The position numbers and the translations under genes are program-made. A DNA stretch of 64,000 nt from Gordonibacter urolithinfaciens (GTDB lineage Bacteria; Actinomycetota; Coriobacteriia; Coriobacteriales; Eggerthellaceae). Of the stretch, positions 59,747 to 64,000 are shown one piece after another. Under the pieces are notes generated by a model. The model had not been told where the DNA came from and did not search any database. It was given only the letters and a program-made list of their open reading frames with translations. The stretch is from assembly GCF_900199375.1 (NCBI RefSeq), contig NZ_LT900217.1, positions 1,364,001 through 1,428,000 on the forward strand. The letters are read 5' to 3'. The stretch's first letter is position 1; every line of letters begins with the position of its first letter.

Positions 59747-61102
59747 CTAAATGTCTCGACTGTAAAGGTCCTCGTACGTTTCGCGGCGCGTGGTCACGCG
59801 CGCCTCGCCGTCTTTCACGAACACGACTGCCGGGCGCGGCTGGCCGTTGTAGTTGCTCGACATGGTGTGGTTGTACGCGCCCGTGCCGAACACGGCCACG
59901 ATGTCGCCCAGGTCGGGACGCTGCATGGGCATGTCGATGACCACGGCGTCGCCGCTTTCGCAGTGCTTGCCGGCGATGGTGACGATCTCGGTGCGCGGCT
60001 GCCCCGCCTTGTTGGCGACCACCGGCTCGTAGTCGGCGTGGTAGAGAGCCGTGCGGATGTTGTCGGACATGCCGCCGTCCACGGCCACGTACTTGCGGAT
60101 GTTCGGCAGCGTCTTGATGATGCCCACCGTGTACAGCGTCACGCCCGCCGTGGCAACCAGGCTGCGGCCCGGCTCCACGAGCAGCCGCGGCTCGGGCATG
60201 CCGTGCGCGGCGCAGGAGGCCTTCACGGCCGCGGTGATGGTTTCGGCGAACTCCTCGATGGAGGCGGGCTTGTCGTCGGCCGTGTAGGCCACGCCCAGGC
60301 CGCCGCCCATGTCCAGCTCCGCGAGCTCGATGCCGTACTCTTCACGGATGCGCGCCATGAGGTCCACCATGACCTCGACGGCCTCCGGATACGAGTGCAG
60401 CGCGAAGATCTGCGAGCCGATGTGGCAGTGCAGGCCCGCCAGGCGCACGTTGGGCGCCGCGAGCACGTCCTTCACGCACTTGAAGGCGAAATCCTCGCGC
60501 ATGGTGAAGCCGAACTTCGAGTCCTCGCATCCCGTGCGGATGTACTGGTGCGTGTCGGCCTCCACGCCTGGCGTGATGCGCAGGTAGATGGGCTGCTCCA
60601 CGCCCAGCTCACCGGCGATATCGGAGATGCGGTGCAGCTCTATGCGGCTGTCGATGACGATGCGGCCCACGCCGGCCTGGATGGCCTCGCGCAGCTCCTG
60701 CGGCGTCTTGTTGTTGCCGTGCATGAAGATGCGCTCGGCGGGAAAACCCGTGGCCAGCGCGCACGCCAGCTCACCGCCGCCCGACACGTCCAGGCACAGG
60801 CCCTCTTCGTTCACGATGCGCGCGGCCTCTTTGTTGAGGAACGCCTTGCTGGCATAGACGACGTCGGCGTTGCCGTAGCGGCTGCGGAACGCCTCGAGGT
60901 AGGTTTCCATGCGCGTGCGCATGTCGCGCTCGTCCATGACGTAGAGCGCCGTGCCCTGCTCGCGCGCCAGCTCAACCAGGTCGACGCCGCCGACGAACAG
61001 GTGGTCGTCGCGCACTTCGGCCGTGAGGGGGAGCACCGCGCCCAGCTCCATGGTGGTGCGGTTGTCGGGCTGCTTGCTCGTGTCTGCCGCAGGTAGGGAC
61101 AT
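59747..61102 (-). CDS. lysA: Diaminopimelate decarboxylase
   Basis: This 451-residue PLP enzyme makes lysine from meso-diaminopimelate. The cofactor lysine is in VVYASKAFLNKEAARIV. GLHCHIGSQIF, DMGGGLGVAY and VEPGRSLVATAGVTLY are the fold III decarboxylase blocks, and KHCESGD carries the catalytic cysteine. ATG 61102 has GAAAGGAA before it. A 53-codon upstream extension in frame is not supported. No lysine riboswitch was recognised upstream. Confidence 0.95.
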   Translation of the reverse strand: MSLPAADTSKQPDNRTTMELGAVLPLTAEVRDDHLFVGGVDLVELAREQGTALYVMDERDMRTRMETYLEAFRSRYGNADVVYASKAFLNKEAARIVNEEGLCLDVSGGGELACALATGFPAERIFMHGNNKTPQELREAIQAGVGRIVIDSRIELHRISDIAGELGVEQPIYLRITPGVEADTHQYIRTGCEDSKFGFTMREDFAFKCVKDVLAAPNVRLAGLHCHIGSQIFALHSYPEAVEVMVDLMARIREEYGIELAELDMGGGLGVAYTADDKPASIEEFAETITAAVKASCAAHGMPEPRLLVEPGRSLVATAGVTLYTVGIIKTLPNIRKYVAVDGGMSDNIRTALYHADYEPVVANKAGQPRTEIVTIAGKHCESGDAVVIDMPMQRPDLGDIVAVFGTGAYNHTMSSNYNGQPRPAVVFVKDGEARVTTRRETYEDLYSRDI

Positions 61103-61288
61103 ACGCGTTCCTTTCGCGTCCGTCGTGTTGCTGAGGGAATTCACCCAGTCTAGCATTGCCGCGGGAGAGGCGGTTTTCAGATGGGCTAAAAAGAGGAATA
61201 TTACACGGCGAGCAGCGTGTTTCGCGGCGCGCGGATGCGCTTGTCGACGATTGCCGGCCAACGTGTCCGAATTGCGAGGTCAAACCCG

Positions 61289-61317
61289 TTGCAGAATCGC
61301 TTGCTGCTTCGTATAAT
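61289..61317 (+). promoter_or_regulatory. Strong promoter of the antisense RNA (locus 2)
   Basis: TTGCAG (61289-61294), a 17-base spacer and a perfect TATAAT (61312-61317) point rightward. No coding sequence follows on this strand before the window end, so the promoter serves a non-coding RNA starting near 61324. Confidence 0.72.
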
Positions 61318-61323
61318 GCGGAT

Positions 61324-61421
61324 TATCGGCGGTGCCCAGGACGGCGAGTTAACGGGTTCACCATCCAGCTCGGGCGGCGCAGGTTTTACGGGAGGCCGGG
61401 ATTATTCCCGGCCTTTGCTTT
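61324..61421 (+). ncRNA. Candidate antisense antitoxin RNA (locus 2)
   Basis: This RNA of about 98 bases has its own sigma-A promoter and a rho-independent terminator: AGGCCGGG (61393-61400) pairs with CCCGGCCT (61407-61414), followed by TTGCTTT. GGTG and CACC around 61331-61362 form a 5' stem-loop. It is convergent with the small peptide gene at 61545-61402 and overlaps its last codons and 3' untranslated region, as RatA does with txpA. No known RNA family was recognised. Confidence 0.6.
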
Positions 61422-61545
61422 CAGCTCCCTTGGATCCCTTCCCACTTCGTCCGTGTTTCCTATAGTCCGTCCGCAGACCGTGGAGGAAGCTCCCGATCGT
61501 GGCCACCGCCGCTATGGCGTAAAGGATTTCAAGAACAATGTTCAT
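61402..61545 (-). CDS. Small hydrophobic peptide, candidate type I toxin (locus 2)
   Basis: This frame encodes 47 residues: a membrane-spanning start (MNIVLEILYAIAAVATIGSF) and a strongly basic tail (HGLRTDYRKHGRSGKGSKG). GGGAGTGG lies 5 bases before ATG 61545, and a promoter stands 50 bases upstream of it. The stop codon lies in the loop of the antisense terminator. Size, topology and convergent RNA all match type I toxins, although no homologue is recognised. The locus resembles 7165-7337 in ribosome-binding site, terminator placement and neighbouring repeat array. Confidence 0.6.
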   Translation of the reverse strand: MNIVLEILYAIAAVATIGSFLHGLRTDYRKHGRSGKGSKGAESKGRE

Positions 61546-61602
61546 AGGCACCACTCCCTTCATGGAAGCGCCACCCGAACACGGACACCGCCGGCACCGT
61601 GC

Positions 61603-61631
61603 ATTGTACGCTGCCCAAACGGTGATGCGAA
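61603..61631 (-). promoter_or_regulatory. Promoter of the small peptide gene (locus 2)
   Basis: On the minus strand TTCGCA (61631 to 61626), a 17-base spacer and TACAAT (61608 to 61603) predict a start near 61596, about 50 bases before the peptide ATG. Confidence 0.55.
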
Positions 61632-61677
61632 GATAGTAAATCTCCTGTTCAGATGCTATTTTTGGTATCGAAAACGT

Positions 61678-61875
61678 GTAAGGTTTCGGCAGGGATCCCG
61701 CAAGATCAACGCGGCAACCGCGCAAGATTCAAGCGGTCGGCATGCAAGGTTCTTGCGGCACCGTCACGGCAAATGTGCAAGATTCGGACGGCGGATCGGC
61801 AAGGTTTGGACGGTCGGCGTGCAAGGTTTGGGCGGTCGACCTTCGGCAAATGTGCAAGATCCGGCGCAGCGGGCG
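61678..61875. repeat. 11-bp-phased GCAAGRT array (copy 2)
   Basis: GCAAGAT or GCAAGGT occurs at 61700, 61722, 61744, 61777, 61799, 61821 and 61854, with GTAAGGT at 61678. Spacings are 22, 22, 22, 33, 22, 22 and 33, all multiples of 11. The intervening 11-mers are of a second type (GCGGTCGGCAT, ACGGCGGATCG, ACGGTCGGCGT). Mixed 22/33 spacing shifts reading frame, so the conserved feature is DNA phase, not protein. It starts about 130 bases upstream of the peptide gene and is in the opposite orientation relative to it compared with locus 1. Confidence 0.75.
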
Positions 61876-61999
61876 CGAAAAAGCCAGGGCGCCGCGTAAA
61901 AACGCAGCGCCCGATTCTTTTCCACCAAACAGGCCGAGTCCCTGAAGAGGTTTTCCACCGCGGCGCAGGCAGCCCGATAGCGCCCTTTCGGCGCTCAAA

Positions 62000-62037: not shown

Positions 62038-63927
62038 CTACGCCAGCCCGAACAGCGCGAGCAGGCGATCCCAGATGCCCTGCTCGGGCTCCTCGACTGC
62101 CGGCTCCTCGTGCGTCGGGGCCTCGATGGGATCGGTGGACATGACGAACTGCACGAGCGAGACGTTGGCGTTCTTCGCGCTGGTAAAGCTCACCGGCTTG
62201 AAATCGCTCTTGTCGTAATCGGCCATCATGGCGTCGATCTCTTTCTGCACCTTGTCGGGAATGCCCTGCACTTCCTCGTACAATGTGCCGGTGCCGTTGG
62301 CCAGCTGCTGGGCGCCCGACGAAAGCTGGCTCGCGCCAGCCGCCAGCTCCCCTGCGCCCGCAGCCGCCTGGTTCGCGCCGGAGGCAAGCTCGGACGTGCC
62401 GGAGGCGAGAGCGCCTGCACCGCCGGCGAACTGGGAGGCGCCGGAGGCGAGGGCATTGGCGCCGCCTATCAAGCTGTTCGCATCTTCAATCGAGCCAACT
62501 CCGCTCGCCGCGCCCGAGAGCGCTTGGGACGAGGCACCGTAGCCGGCATTCGCCGCGTTAACGGTCACGAGATCTTCCAAAGCCGTCTGAAGGCTCGCCT
62601 GCGCTGCTGCGACAGCGGGTTTTCCCATCGCCGCAATCGAGGCGGTTTGGACAGCCGCCTTCATTGCGTCTTGGACGTCCATGCCGGCAGCTAGGTTTTC
62701 CGCATAGGCCTGCGTGTACAGAGGGGTGTACTCTCCGATGAAGGCCTGGGTGTACTGCGCCATCGCGTTTTCATAGGCGCCCTGAGCGGCAGCGGCAGCG
62801 GCTTGGTCGACCATGCCAAGCGTCTGCGCAGCTTGGGCGGCCAGCTCGTTTTGGTAAGTCGTCAACCCGCTCGCAAGCCCCTGCGCTCCCGCAGCCACGC
62901 CCTGCGCGCCTCCTGCAAGCTCATTCGCGCCGCCTACCAGTTGGCCGGCACCTGCGGCAAGGCCGTTCGCGCCGCCCGCCACCTGGCCCACGCCCGAGGC
63001 GAGCTCGCTTGCCCCGCTCGCCAAGCCATCGGCGCCCGTCTTGAGCGCGCCCACGCCGTCGCCCAGCTGGCGGAACCCGGACACGAGTTCCGTCGTGTCC
63101 GGCATCTCGATGCCCATTGAGAACGGTACGGCGGCGAAGCTGATGCCGCTCATCGAGAAACCGCTCACCTGAGCCTCGACCTTGAACGAGCCGTCCTTGC
63201 CCGGCATGCCCGTAAACGTGACCTGCGTGTTCGAGCCGGCGAGGGCGATCTGCCCGTCCTCGGTCGCCACGTCCTTCACCTGGTCCGACACGAACGGGAC
63301 CGTAATCTGCAGCAGGTAGTTGTCGAAGAACGCCGGGTCGACCGACGTGTTCTTCTTCGTGGTAACGAAGATGGCCAGCTTGCCGCTCGCACCGCCCAGA
63401 TCGGCCGCGTCCACGCGCTTGCCGTCAAGCTCGTACTCCACCGACACGTCCCACGGCAGCGCCGCCGCGCCCAGGTCGCCCTGATAGCTTAGCGAGTCGC
63501 CGGCAACGTCCACCGACACGGCATCGCCCTGCTGCTCGACGCCGCTCGCGTCGGTAAGGTTCTGCACAGCGGTGTACGGGCCGTAATCGACCACCTTCCC
63601 CGGCGCGTCCGGGTTGAGCACGTTCACCACGTACACGTTGTCCACAGCCCCCGCCGCAGACAACCGCGCGTACACCACTTCTTCCTTGGGCGTATCGTTG
63701 ACGGCTGCTCCGGTCGCCGCAGCGCTCGCCGAACCCGCGGAGCCCGCTTCGCCTGCACTCGCCGCAGCGCCGCCCTCCGCCGCCAAGGCCGCGAGCGTCG
63801 CAGGCGAGCCGCCGCATAGCCCGATAGCCAACGTACCCGCCAGCACGAGTGAGAACGCCGCGCACAAACGCGCCCGCGCCTTCCGCGCGCAGCGAGCCGG
63901 TCGCTCCGCCTTCGCTTCTTCAACCAT
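62038..63927 (-). CDS. Secreted protein with YhgE-like Gly/Ala heptad repeats
   Basis: This 629-residue protein has a signal peptide (LCAAFSLVLAGTLAIGLCGG). An N-terminal beta-rich region follows (residues 60-270, VVYARLSAAGAVDNVYVVNV and similar). Two blocks of heptad-like repeats of the form GAxxLASGAxxLAGG flank an Ala/Gln-rich helical stretch. Similar repeats occur in YhgE/Pip proteins and in proteins beside MMPL transporters. A C-terminal membrane domain and LPxTG are absent, and it ends in an amphipathic WDRLLALFGLA. Start 63927 is chosen for AGGGCGAC and the signal. The frame stays open to the window edge. Confidence 0.6.
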   Translation of the reverse strand: MVEEAKAERPARCARKARARLCAAFSLVLAGTLAIGLCGGSPATLAALAAEGGAAASAGEAGSAGSASAAATGAAVNDTPKEEVVYARLSAAGAVDNVYVVNVLNPDAPGKVVDYGPYTAVQNLTDASGVEQQGDAVSVDVAGDSLSYQGDLGAAALPWDVSVEYELDGKRVDAADLGGASGKLAIFVTTKKNTSVDPAFFDNYLLQITVPFVSDQVKDVATEDGQIALAGSNTQVTFTGMPGKDGSFKVEAQVSGFSMSGISFAAVPFSMGIEMPDTTELVSGFRQLGDGVGALKTGADGLASGASELASGVGQVAGGANGLAAGAGQLVGGANELAGGAQGVAAGAQGLASGLTTYQNELAAQAAQTLGMVDQAAAAAAQGAYENAMAQYTQAFIGEYTPLYTQAYAENLAAGMDVQDAMKAAVQTASIAAMGKPAVAAAQASLQTALEDLVTVNAANAGYGASSQALSGAASGVGSIEDANSLIGGANALASGASQFAGGAGALASGTSELASGANQAAAGAGELAAGASQLSSGAQQLANGTGTLYEEVQGIPDKVQKEIDAMMADYDKSDFKPVSFTSAKNANVSLVQFVMSTDPIEAPTHEEPAVEEPEQGIWDRLLALFGLA

Positions 63928-64000
63928 GCACGTCGCCCTGTGAGAAACCGCCGTGCCGCCGTATTTCCTCGCCGCTTCGTCAGGCGTGCCCGACCGCATC

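Follow-up and report, generated by a model that had tools for sequence, protein, structure and literature searches.

The convergent type I toxin-antitoxin pairs txpA/RatA and bsrG/SR4, which have the same layout, are among the described systems closest in arrangement to the locus reported here. In txpA/RatA, the 3′ overlap of the two RNAs leads to decay by RNase III. The mRNAs of type I toxins are commonly, if not universally, closed structures, with a hidden Shine-Dalgarno sequence and pairing between 5′ and 3′ regions being typical of them; in hok, pairing of this kind keeps the full-length mRNA inert. A review of type I systems describes txpA/RatA as convergent genes in which the RNA reaches into the 3′ part of the toxin mRNA, and the RNAs of par/Fst of pAD1 as pairing through direct repeats and having a terminator in common (PMC4147584). 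For timP, another paper reports a covarying distant helix that controls translation, in this case an activating pseudoknot within the 5′ UTR (PMC11228461). According to the abstract of a 2025 paper, type I systems were known from three phyla only (Proteobacteria, Firmicutes and Tenericutes) until Cyanobacteria were proposed to join them (PMC12390103). In open-licence PubMed Central text, mostly in the form of listings, we found neither an Actinomycetota type I case nor any literature linking Collinsella-1 or the Coriobacteriia with type I systems. Collinsella-1 itself is among the candidate RNAs tabulated in Weinberg 2010, where it is assigned to Actinobacteria and the human gut (PMC2864571).

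The stretch of DNA analysed here, hereafter the window, comprises 64,000 nucleotides from Gordonibacter urolithinfaciens (contig NZ_LT900217.1), a member of the class Coriobacteriia whose 3.29-Mb genome is a single contig. A preliminary description had read one of its loci as a type I toxin-antitoxin-like system. The conserved convergent pair described below supports that reading, with the toxin role putative, and we consider it probable, at roughly four chances in five as judged from sequence comparison, that the unit belongs, as one of its copies, to a chromosomal family in Coriobacteriia that resembles type I toxin-antitoxin systems. A small hydrophobic peptide gene faced by an overlapping RNA, the usual mark of type I, is found both in the anatomy of the window and for 75 of the 95 peptides detected in the class.

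As in txpA/RatA and bsrG/SR4, the genes are convergent, the peptide is small and hydrophobic then basic, and the RNA lies on the 3′ end of the mRNA, this overlap being present by anatomy; the window peptide differs in matching no family in four profile libraries. The resemblance to txpA/RatA proposed in the preliminary description holds as one of layout only. Two features go beyond it, namely the hairpins shared by the 5′ ends of both RNAs and the predicted pairing between the leader and a 3′ element; to our knowledge, neither has been described for txpA/RatA or bsrG/SR4. With par/Fst (RNA I/RNA II) the locus shares convergent RNAs that overlap at the 3′ end and repeats in both RNAs. Here, however, the repeats are inverted, both RNAs have a hairpin of the same sense, complementary 5′ parts are absent and the terminator is mostly one-sided. 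The proposed control of the toxin mRNA by alternative structure, with a leader segment that pairs at a distance, would recall hok/Sok and timP/TimR, but the partner sits where the coding region ends or beyond it, not in the 5′ UTR as in timP, and the window-type peptides have no Hok family match.

Organization of the locus

The unit is flanked by lysA (59747-61102, minus strand), which encodes decarboxylase domains, and by a gene for a 653-aa protein (62038-63999, minus strand). Its features are collected in Table 1. The minus-strand promoter, ribosome site and 47-codon gene of the preliminary description are all readable, the encoded peptide passing from a hydrophobic stretch into a basic tail. 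In the promoter scan, the toxin mRNA promoter matches 9 of 12 consensus positions, with TTCGCA as a −35-like element. On the plus strand the proposed promoter, RNA and terminator were also found. The promoter combines a perfect −10 box with a −35 box that matches at only 3/6 positions and, since the scan requires four positions in the −35 box, it is absent from the scan list. The terminator has a weak, interrupted T tail and falls below the detection level of the terminator scan. The preliminary description had the locus extend over 61289-61875; the unit itself stands, but the part up to 61875 is the region upstream of the toxin gene with its phased repeats and belongs to neither RNA. A strong intrinsic terminator at 61887-61912 (minus strand), probably that of the gene at 62038-63999, separates this gene from the toxin promoter.

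Table 1. Features of the unit, in window coordinates.
Feature	Position	Strand	Remarks
Peptide gene	ORF 61405-61545; stop 61402-61404	−	47 aa, MNIVLEILYAIAAVATIGSFLHGLRTDYRKHGRSGKGSKGAESKGRE; start ATG 61545-61543
Shine-Dalgarno GGGAG	61554-61558	−	Sequence reading
Toxin mRNA promoter	61603-61631	−	TTCGCA - 17 nt - TACAAT; −10 at 61603-61608
Small RNA promoter	61289-61317	+	TTGCAG (61289-61294) - 17 nt - TATAAT (61312-61317)
Small RNA, putative antitoxin, Collinsella-1 homologue by sequence	~61324 to ~61420/61422	+	~98 nt; ends placed from promoter and terminator
S hairpin of small RNA	61326-61380	+	Conserved arms TCGGCGGTGCCC and CGGGCGGCGC, long variable loop
Small RNA terminator	61394-61422 (stem 61394-61413)	+	Stem overlaps toxin stop codon and last codons
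Hairpin B	61546-61576	−	Predicted fold; hides Shine-Dalgarno (61554-61558)
L element of mRNA leader	61568-61594	−	Inverted-repeat twin of S hairpin
Leader segment GUCCGUGUU	61578-61586	−	Predicted to pair with element E
Element E AACACGGAC	61449-61457	−	Close to 3′ end of coding region; predicted partner of leader
AAYCTTGC-like repeat array	61675-61864	−	Steps are multiples of 11 bp; upstream of toxin promoter

The peptide and the small RNA

Searches with 28 members of the peptide family against Pfam, NCBIfam, PHROGs and PADLOC found no family, and none of Fst/par, Hok or TxpA/Hol-Tox, as far as these have profiles in the same four libraries, was listed for the 28 peptides. ComGE was rejected as a chance match, the lowest E-value being 0.0096 and only 4 of the 28 members being involved. 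Pooled pN/pS over codons 2-26, in pairs that are not independent, is 0.51 for the Gordonibacter/Eggerthella group (21 pairs), 0.60 for group g66 (21 pairs) and 0.70 for a third group (3 pairs), which suggests moderate constraint on the peptide. Group g2 (10 pairs, pooled 0.99) was left out because N-termini of unequal length had been compared without gaps, and the Collinsella-type group consists of one, uninformative pair.

The small RNA does have relatives. In a search of the 3.29-Mb genome, the Rfam model of Collinsella-1 (RF01700), whose span takes in both promoter region and RNA, matched the window at 61228-61413 with 24.2 bits (E 4.2e-4), the sole match in the whole genome at E ≤ 0.001. 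This score is below the gathering cut-off of 35 bits, and by the Rfam rule the window copy therefore falls outside the family. Across the class, RF01700 matches 51 of 296 genomes at E ≤ 0.1 and 29 of 296 above the cut-off; the best copies, at up to 221.9 bits, are without a detected peptide. We also built a covariance model, R1, from 23 RNA cores, four of them from genus g52. Its core structure was named by hand since RNAalifold on the MAFFT alignment of the cores was unhelpful, yielding 5 invariant pairs only and no covariation. R1 gives the window copy, which is among its 23 training cores, an E-value of 8.1e-10. Since an R1 match lies inside 31 of the 36 above-cut-off RF01700 matches, one homologous core joins the window to the high-scoring copies. 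A profile peptide faces 14 of these 36 matches, including one of 212.4 bits (G279), and is lacking in the other 22.

The window copy and RF01700 share the RNA core, the placement of the promoter and the terminator. They differ in the score of the window copy and in that Collinsella-1 is catalogued as a candidate RNA of no assigned function; its marks in the 2010 table, ‘y n n’, presumably stand for RNA likely, not cis-regulatory and not a switch. By these sequence comparisons, the small RNA and Collinsella-1 are homologous. The earlier statement that no family could be recognised in Coriobacteriia survives for the peptide, as far as the four libraries go, and fails for the RNA. Two further candidates for the RNA, SorY (19.2 bits against a cut-off of 111) and P17 (11.8 bits against 45), were set aside as chance matches.

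The arms of the RNA core are nearly invariant across units. The loops of the S hairpin are enriched in UUAA, which occurs in 36/86 of them against a mean of 4.2 in shuffled loops; YUNR is present in 74/86, a raw count without background on which no claim rests. At five loci of genus g52 (L059, L064, L067, L070 and L074) there are high-scoring Collinsella-1 RNAs with neither a twin leader (see below) nor a profile peptide, which we regard as candidate orphan antitoxins; in L059 and L070 the sequence beyond the terminator looks unrelated to that of L065. In each of L188 (G053) and L189 (G068), a pair of RF01700 matches converges at a distance of about 260-310 bp, and no peptide was recognised in the interval.

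Conservation of the convergent pair

A profile built from the 28 peptides and applied at E ≤ 0.01 found 95 matches in 49 of 296 class genomes, and R1 found 147 matches in 71 of the same genomes. For 75 of the 95 peptides an RNA match lies on the opposite strand, 27-75 nt beyond the end of the peptide match; as the two models share seed units, at most 23 of these pairs were in training and at least 52 lie outside it. Within 600 nt, none of the peptides (0/95) is accompanied by an RNA match on its own strand. The preliminary description had made its case depend on the peptide frame being conserved together with the facing promoter and terminator, and comparison of the genomes bears this out.

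The remaining 20 peptides were inspected by eye. An RNA-like core was seen on this looser inspection for 12 of them (L117, L128, L136 twice, L140, L153, L155, L156, L164, L165, L168 and L172), one (L170) has only 120 bases to the contig end and another (L149, in G010) is followed by foreign sequence. In the last case there are 480 bases beyond the peptide, with other sequence from base 704 that by eye contains a transposase-like frame, and the unit has probably been split by an insertion. Another contig of G010 carries an RNA match at its end. No RNA was recognised for the other six (L022, L115, L154, L163, L166 and L171), of which three or more, L022, L166 and L171 among them, seem to be fragments or questionable peptide matches. 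The RNA is accordingly kept in a fixed convergent place for 87/95 peptides, 75 by model and 12 by looser inspection. In the other direction, 72 of the 147 RNA matches are without a peptide detected by the profile. Among 29 such matches examined (25 loci), several have a divergent peptide behind a leader of the same type (MPIEEILVALAVAALAADS..) and others have none. Peptides without a recognised RNA are rare (6/95) and RNAs without a recognised peptide are common, the pattern expected of an antitoxin.

The G. urolithinfaciens genome has three peptides and three RNAs, all paired. There are up to 5 copies per genome elsewhere, and tandem units occur in G232, G303, G331 and G350. Within the genus, the peptide is found in this genome and in four others, including G068, where the first search gave E 0.06 and the 28-peptide profile 6.6e-15. 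In 4/5 genus genomes (G000, G066, G067 and G068) a unit lies between the same two flanking genes. The unit at this site in G068 (L028) is divergent, with 70% identity over 107 nt to window positions 61290-61620, while its flanks are 75% and 83% identical, which suggests cassette exchange. In G066, L020 and L026 are 97% identical over 312 bp, in a match whose ends each fall a few bases at most from one of the −10 boxes and which has no continuation in the flanks.

A survey of 396 phylum genomes gave matches in 8 outside the order, all with E-values of 0.0025 or worse. They were judged to be chance. In the three examined more closely (L203-L205), no core with a −10-like box was found. Nothing was found in viral contigs with one peptide alignment as query, nor in phages or plasmids with one 331-base DNA query each.

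Twin hairpins of the leader and the small RNA

At their 5′ ends, the leader of the mRNA and the small RNA carry the same hairpin arms, which appear in the DNA as inverted repeats. A twin leader is present in the expected place, on the opposite strand and 135-218 nt away, for 86 of 127 distinct RNA cores, compared with 8/127 in control placements downstream on the same strand and 4/124 and 10/124 upstream. This count takes distinct cores with a −10-like box, allows the pattern at most one mismatch and has reverse complements of the hairpin removed. A looser count, of 244 cores and allowing two mismatches, failed to separate the expected place (151) from the controls (99, 128 and 160) because reverse-complement hairpins were counted as cores and the pattern was loose.

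Choosing units by pattern forces part of the likeness between the L and S arms. At one position, where the pattern admitted both bases, the twins show a fixed difference, with C in the RNA (84/86) and U in the leader (84/86). At 21 other positions, twins of the same unit agree on average at 19.16/21, against 18.21/21 for twins taken from different units of one genome. In 51 units from 21 genomes, comparison within genomes gives 31 wins, 17 ties and 3 losses for the cis pairing, and 0/5000 within-genome shuffles do as well; the arms of a unit agree in cis. Folding of the leader into a twin hairpin of its own found no support, the predicted probability exceeding 0.5 in 4/62 isolated leaders and in 0/62 full mRNAs. 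In these models a helix of the leader's own arms does not account for what keeps the twin arms alike.

A predicted closed fold in the toxin mRNA

A start was recognised in 81 of the 86 units; these encode 77 distinct peptides, 62 of them with a clear ATG context, and folding counts refer to these 62 units, one per distinct peptide. A hairpin running from the 3′ arm of the leader to the start codon has a mean z-score of −3.87 relative to dinucleotide shuffles, with z < −2 in 61/62 units, and in the predicted folds the Shine-Dalgarno bases are mostly paired in 61/62 leaders.

A second conserved segment, element E (CGGAUGACG.., in the window CGGACGAAG), lies on the mRNA just past the terminator of the small RNA. 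It is read in all three frames, for example as RMTKGE, TDDEGR or NG-stop, and also occurs after the stop codon. A longer form of the motif, with at most three mismatches, is present in 52/86 units, and the 50 of these with a start use frames 0, 1 and 2 in 13, 25 and 12 cases. Since the element occurs in every frame and past the stop, it is evidently conserved as RNA.

Selected by likeness to its own consensus and not to the leader, E pairs well with leader positions 9-13 (GUCCG). Among the 77 distinct peptides 365 of 385 pairs are possible, against a shuffled mean of 357.5, and 0/20000 shuffles reach 365, a global test that is inflated by relatedness among units. When shuffles are made only within genomes (18 genomes), 85/5000 reach the observed number, a modest signal. 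The twin arm of the small RNA makes only 277 pairs with E; the better pairing of the leader would explain the fixed C/U difference between the twins. All five pairs are present in 58/77 cases, four in 18/77 and three in one (L112). Comparison of units reveals compensatory changes at three of the five pairs (GUCCC/GGGAY, GUCUG/CAGAU and GUUCG/CGAAU), and in the Gordonibacter/Eggerthella group the compensation reaches into the loop (GUCCGUGUU/AACACGGAC, GUCCGCAUU/AAUGCGGAC and GUCCGCGU/ACGCGGAC). Contiguous leader-E pairing sums to 419, against a mean of 383 and a maximum of 408 in 5000 shuffles. Uncompensated changes are also present, for example in L041, L099 and L112.

When the mRNA is folded from leader to E, the leader-E helix has a probability above 0.5 in 42/62 units (median 0.93, without a shuffled control). 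In the predicted fold of the window copy its mean pairing probability is 0.99, alongside the Shine-Dalgarno hairpin. Prediction and covariation together suggest that the toxin mRNA is structurally closed, by a hidden Shine-Dalgarno sequence and by long-range pairing.

At least four T in the 8 nt after the stem are found on the RNA strand in 47/62 units and on the mRNA strand in 6/62; no toxin mRNA terminator was apparent in the terminator scan and T-tail count of the 62 units. With a terminator so one-sided, the toxin mRNA may run across the RNA gene, and the overlap would then be complete.

Proposed mechanism and alternative explanations

Transcription, toxicity, silencing and the order of refolding are what we infer from these comparisons. 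The minus strand would give rise to a short membrane peptide and the plus strand to the Collinsella-1 homologue of about 98 nt which, overlapping the 3′ end of the mRNA, should silence it. The toxin mRNA would be born closed, hairpin B covering the ribosome site and the GUCCG.. segment of the leader pairing with element E, and would be inert until refolded or trimmed, as in hok. Repression would most likely rest on antisense pairing with the 3′ part of the mRNA. The twin hairpin, whose arms match those of the leader and could exchange strands with them, may contribute as well. The closed fold would delay translation until the small RNA can act.

Counting against this reading, some of the peptide-less RNAs look like true orphans, and the RNA may have a function apart from the peptide. 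It could be the working part of the unit, either a trans regulator or a protein-binding RNA, with the peptide a non-toxic regulatory membrane protein tuned by it. The near invariance of the core arms goes beyond the needs of plain antisense and fits such a role, as do the UUAA enrichment of the loops and the 22 of 36 above-cut-off RF01700 matches that no profile peptide faces. We nevertheless think it improbable, given that 87 of 95 peptides keep the RNA in its convergent place, that the units are multi-copy and sometimes in tandem, and that a closed mRNA with hidden Shine-Dalgarno sequence and 5′-3′ pairing is a typical trait of toxin mRNAs. Less probable still is that the unit is a MITE-like mobile repeat whose inverted ends with −10 boxes are transposition ends, the peptide being incidental. 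Inverted repeat ends, several copies per genome and the G066 pair, which is alike from −10 box to −10 box between unlike flanks, would all suit such an element. The two ends, however, differ in a fixed way; a MITE would have no use for a conserved Shine-Dalgarno hairpin, a terminator, a peptide or leader-E covariation; and the site is kept in 4/5 genus genomes. As to the G066 pair, L026 has a flanking gene end in common with L021 of G000, and gene conversion explains the likeness equally well.

Within the type I reading, a more specific module can be imagined, which we put forward tentatively as a possibility with the odds against it. The antitoxin RNA, here Collinsella-1, would be an inverted twin of the leader whose hairpin arms are kept alike in cis, and silencing would proceed by exchange of arms, or by competition for one shared binding protein, rather than by plain antisense. 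Through the single C/U difference, pairing with the 3′ element of the mRNA would be confined to the mRNA itself, and units would move as cassettes between fixed sites.

Upstream repeats and implications

For phased repeats similar to AAYCTTGC, a pattern derived from the window itself, the 300 bp preceding the toxin promoters were examined in the 86 units, and the mRNA strand gave 19 matches; 17 of these are in five Gordonibacter units, and three control placements give 2, 0 and 1. The array is present in both orthologous and paralogous Gordonibacter units. Phasing by 11 bp is typical of response-regulator sites. A review mentions that type I toxin genes of Bacillus are preceded by putative ResD sites (PMC4147584). 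The repeats may possibly be regulator sites, which we offer as a lead rather than a result.

If the unit is what we take it to be, type I systems would extend to another phylum through a family that is multi-copy in many Coriobacteriia, which are gut Actinomycetota, and a role would be suggested for Collinsella-1, an RNA family without one since 2010. The family would also provide a comparative data set in which the refolding of a toxin mRNA can be read from covariation and put to direct test, and the phased repeats hint at an identifiable regulator of the toxin promoter.
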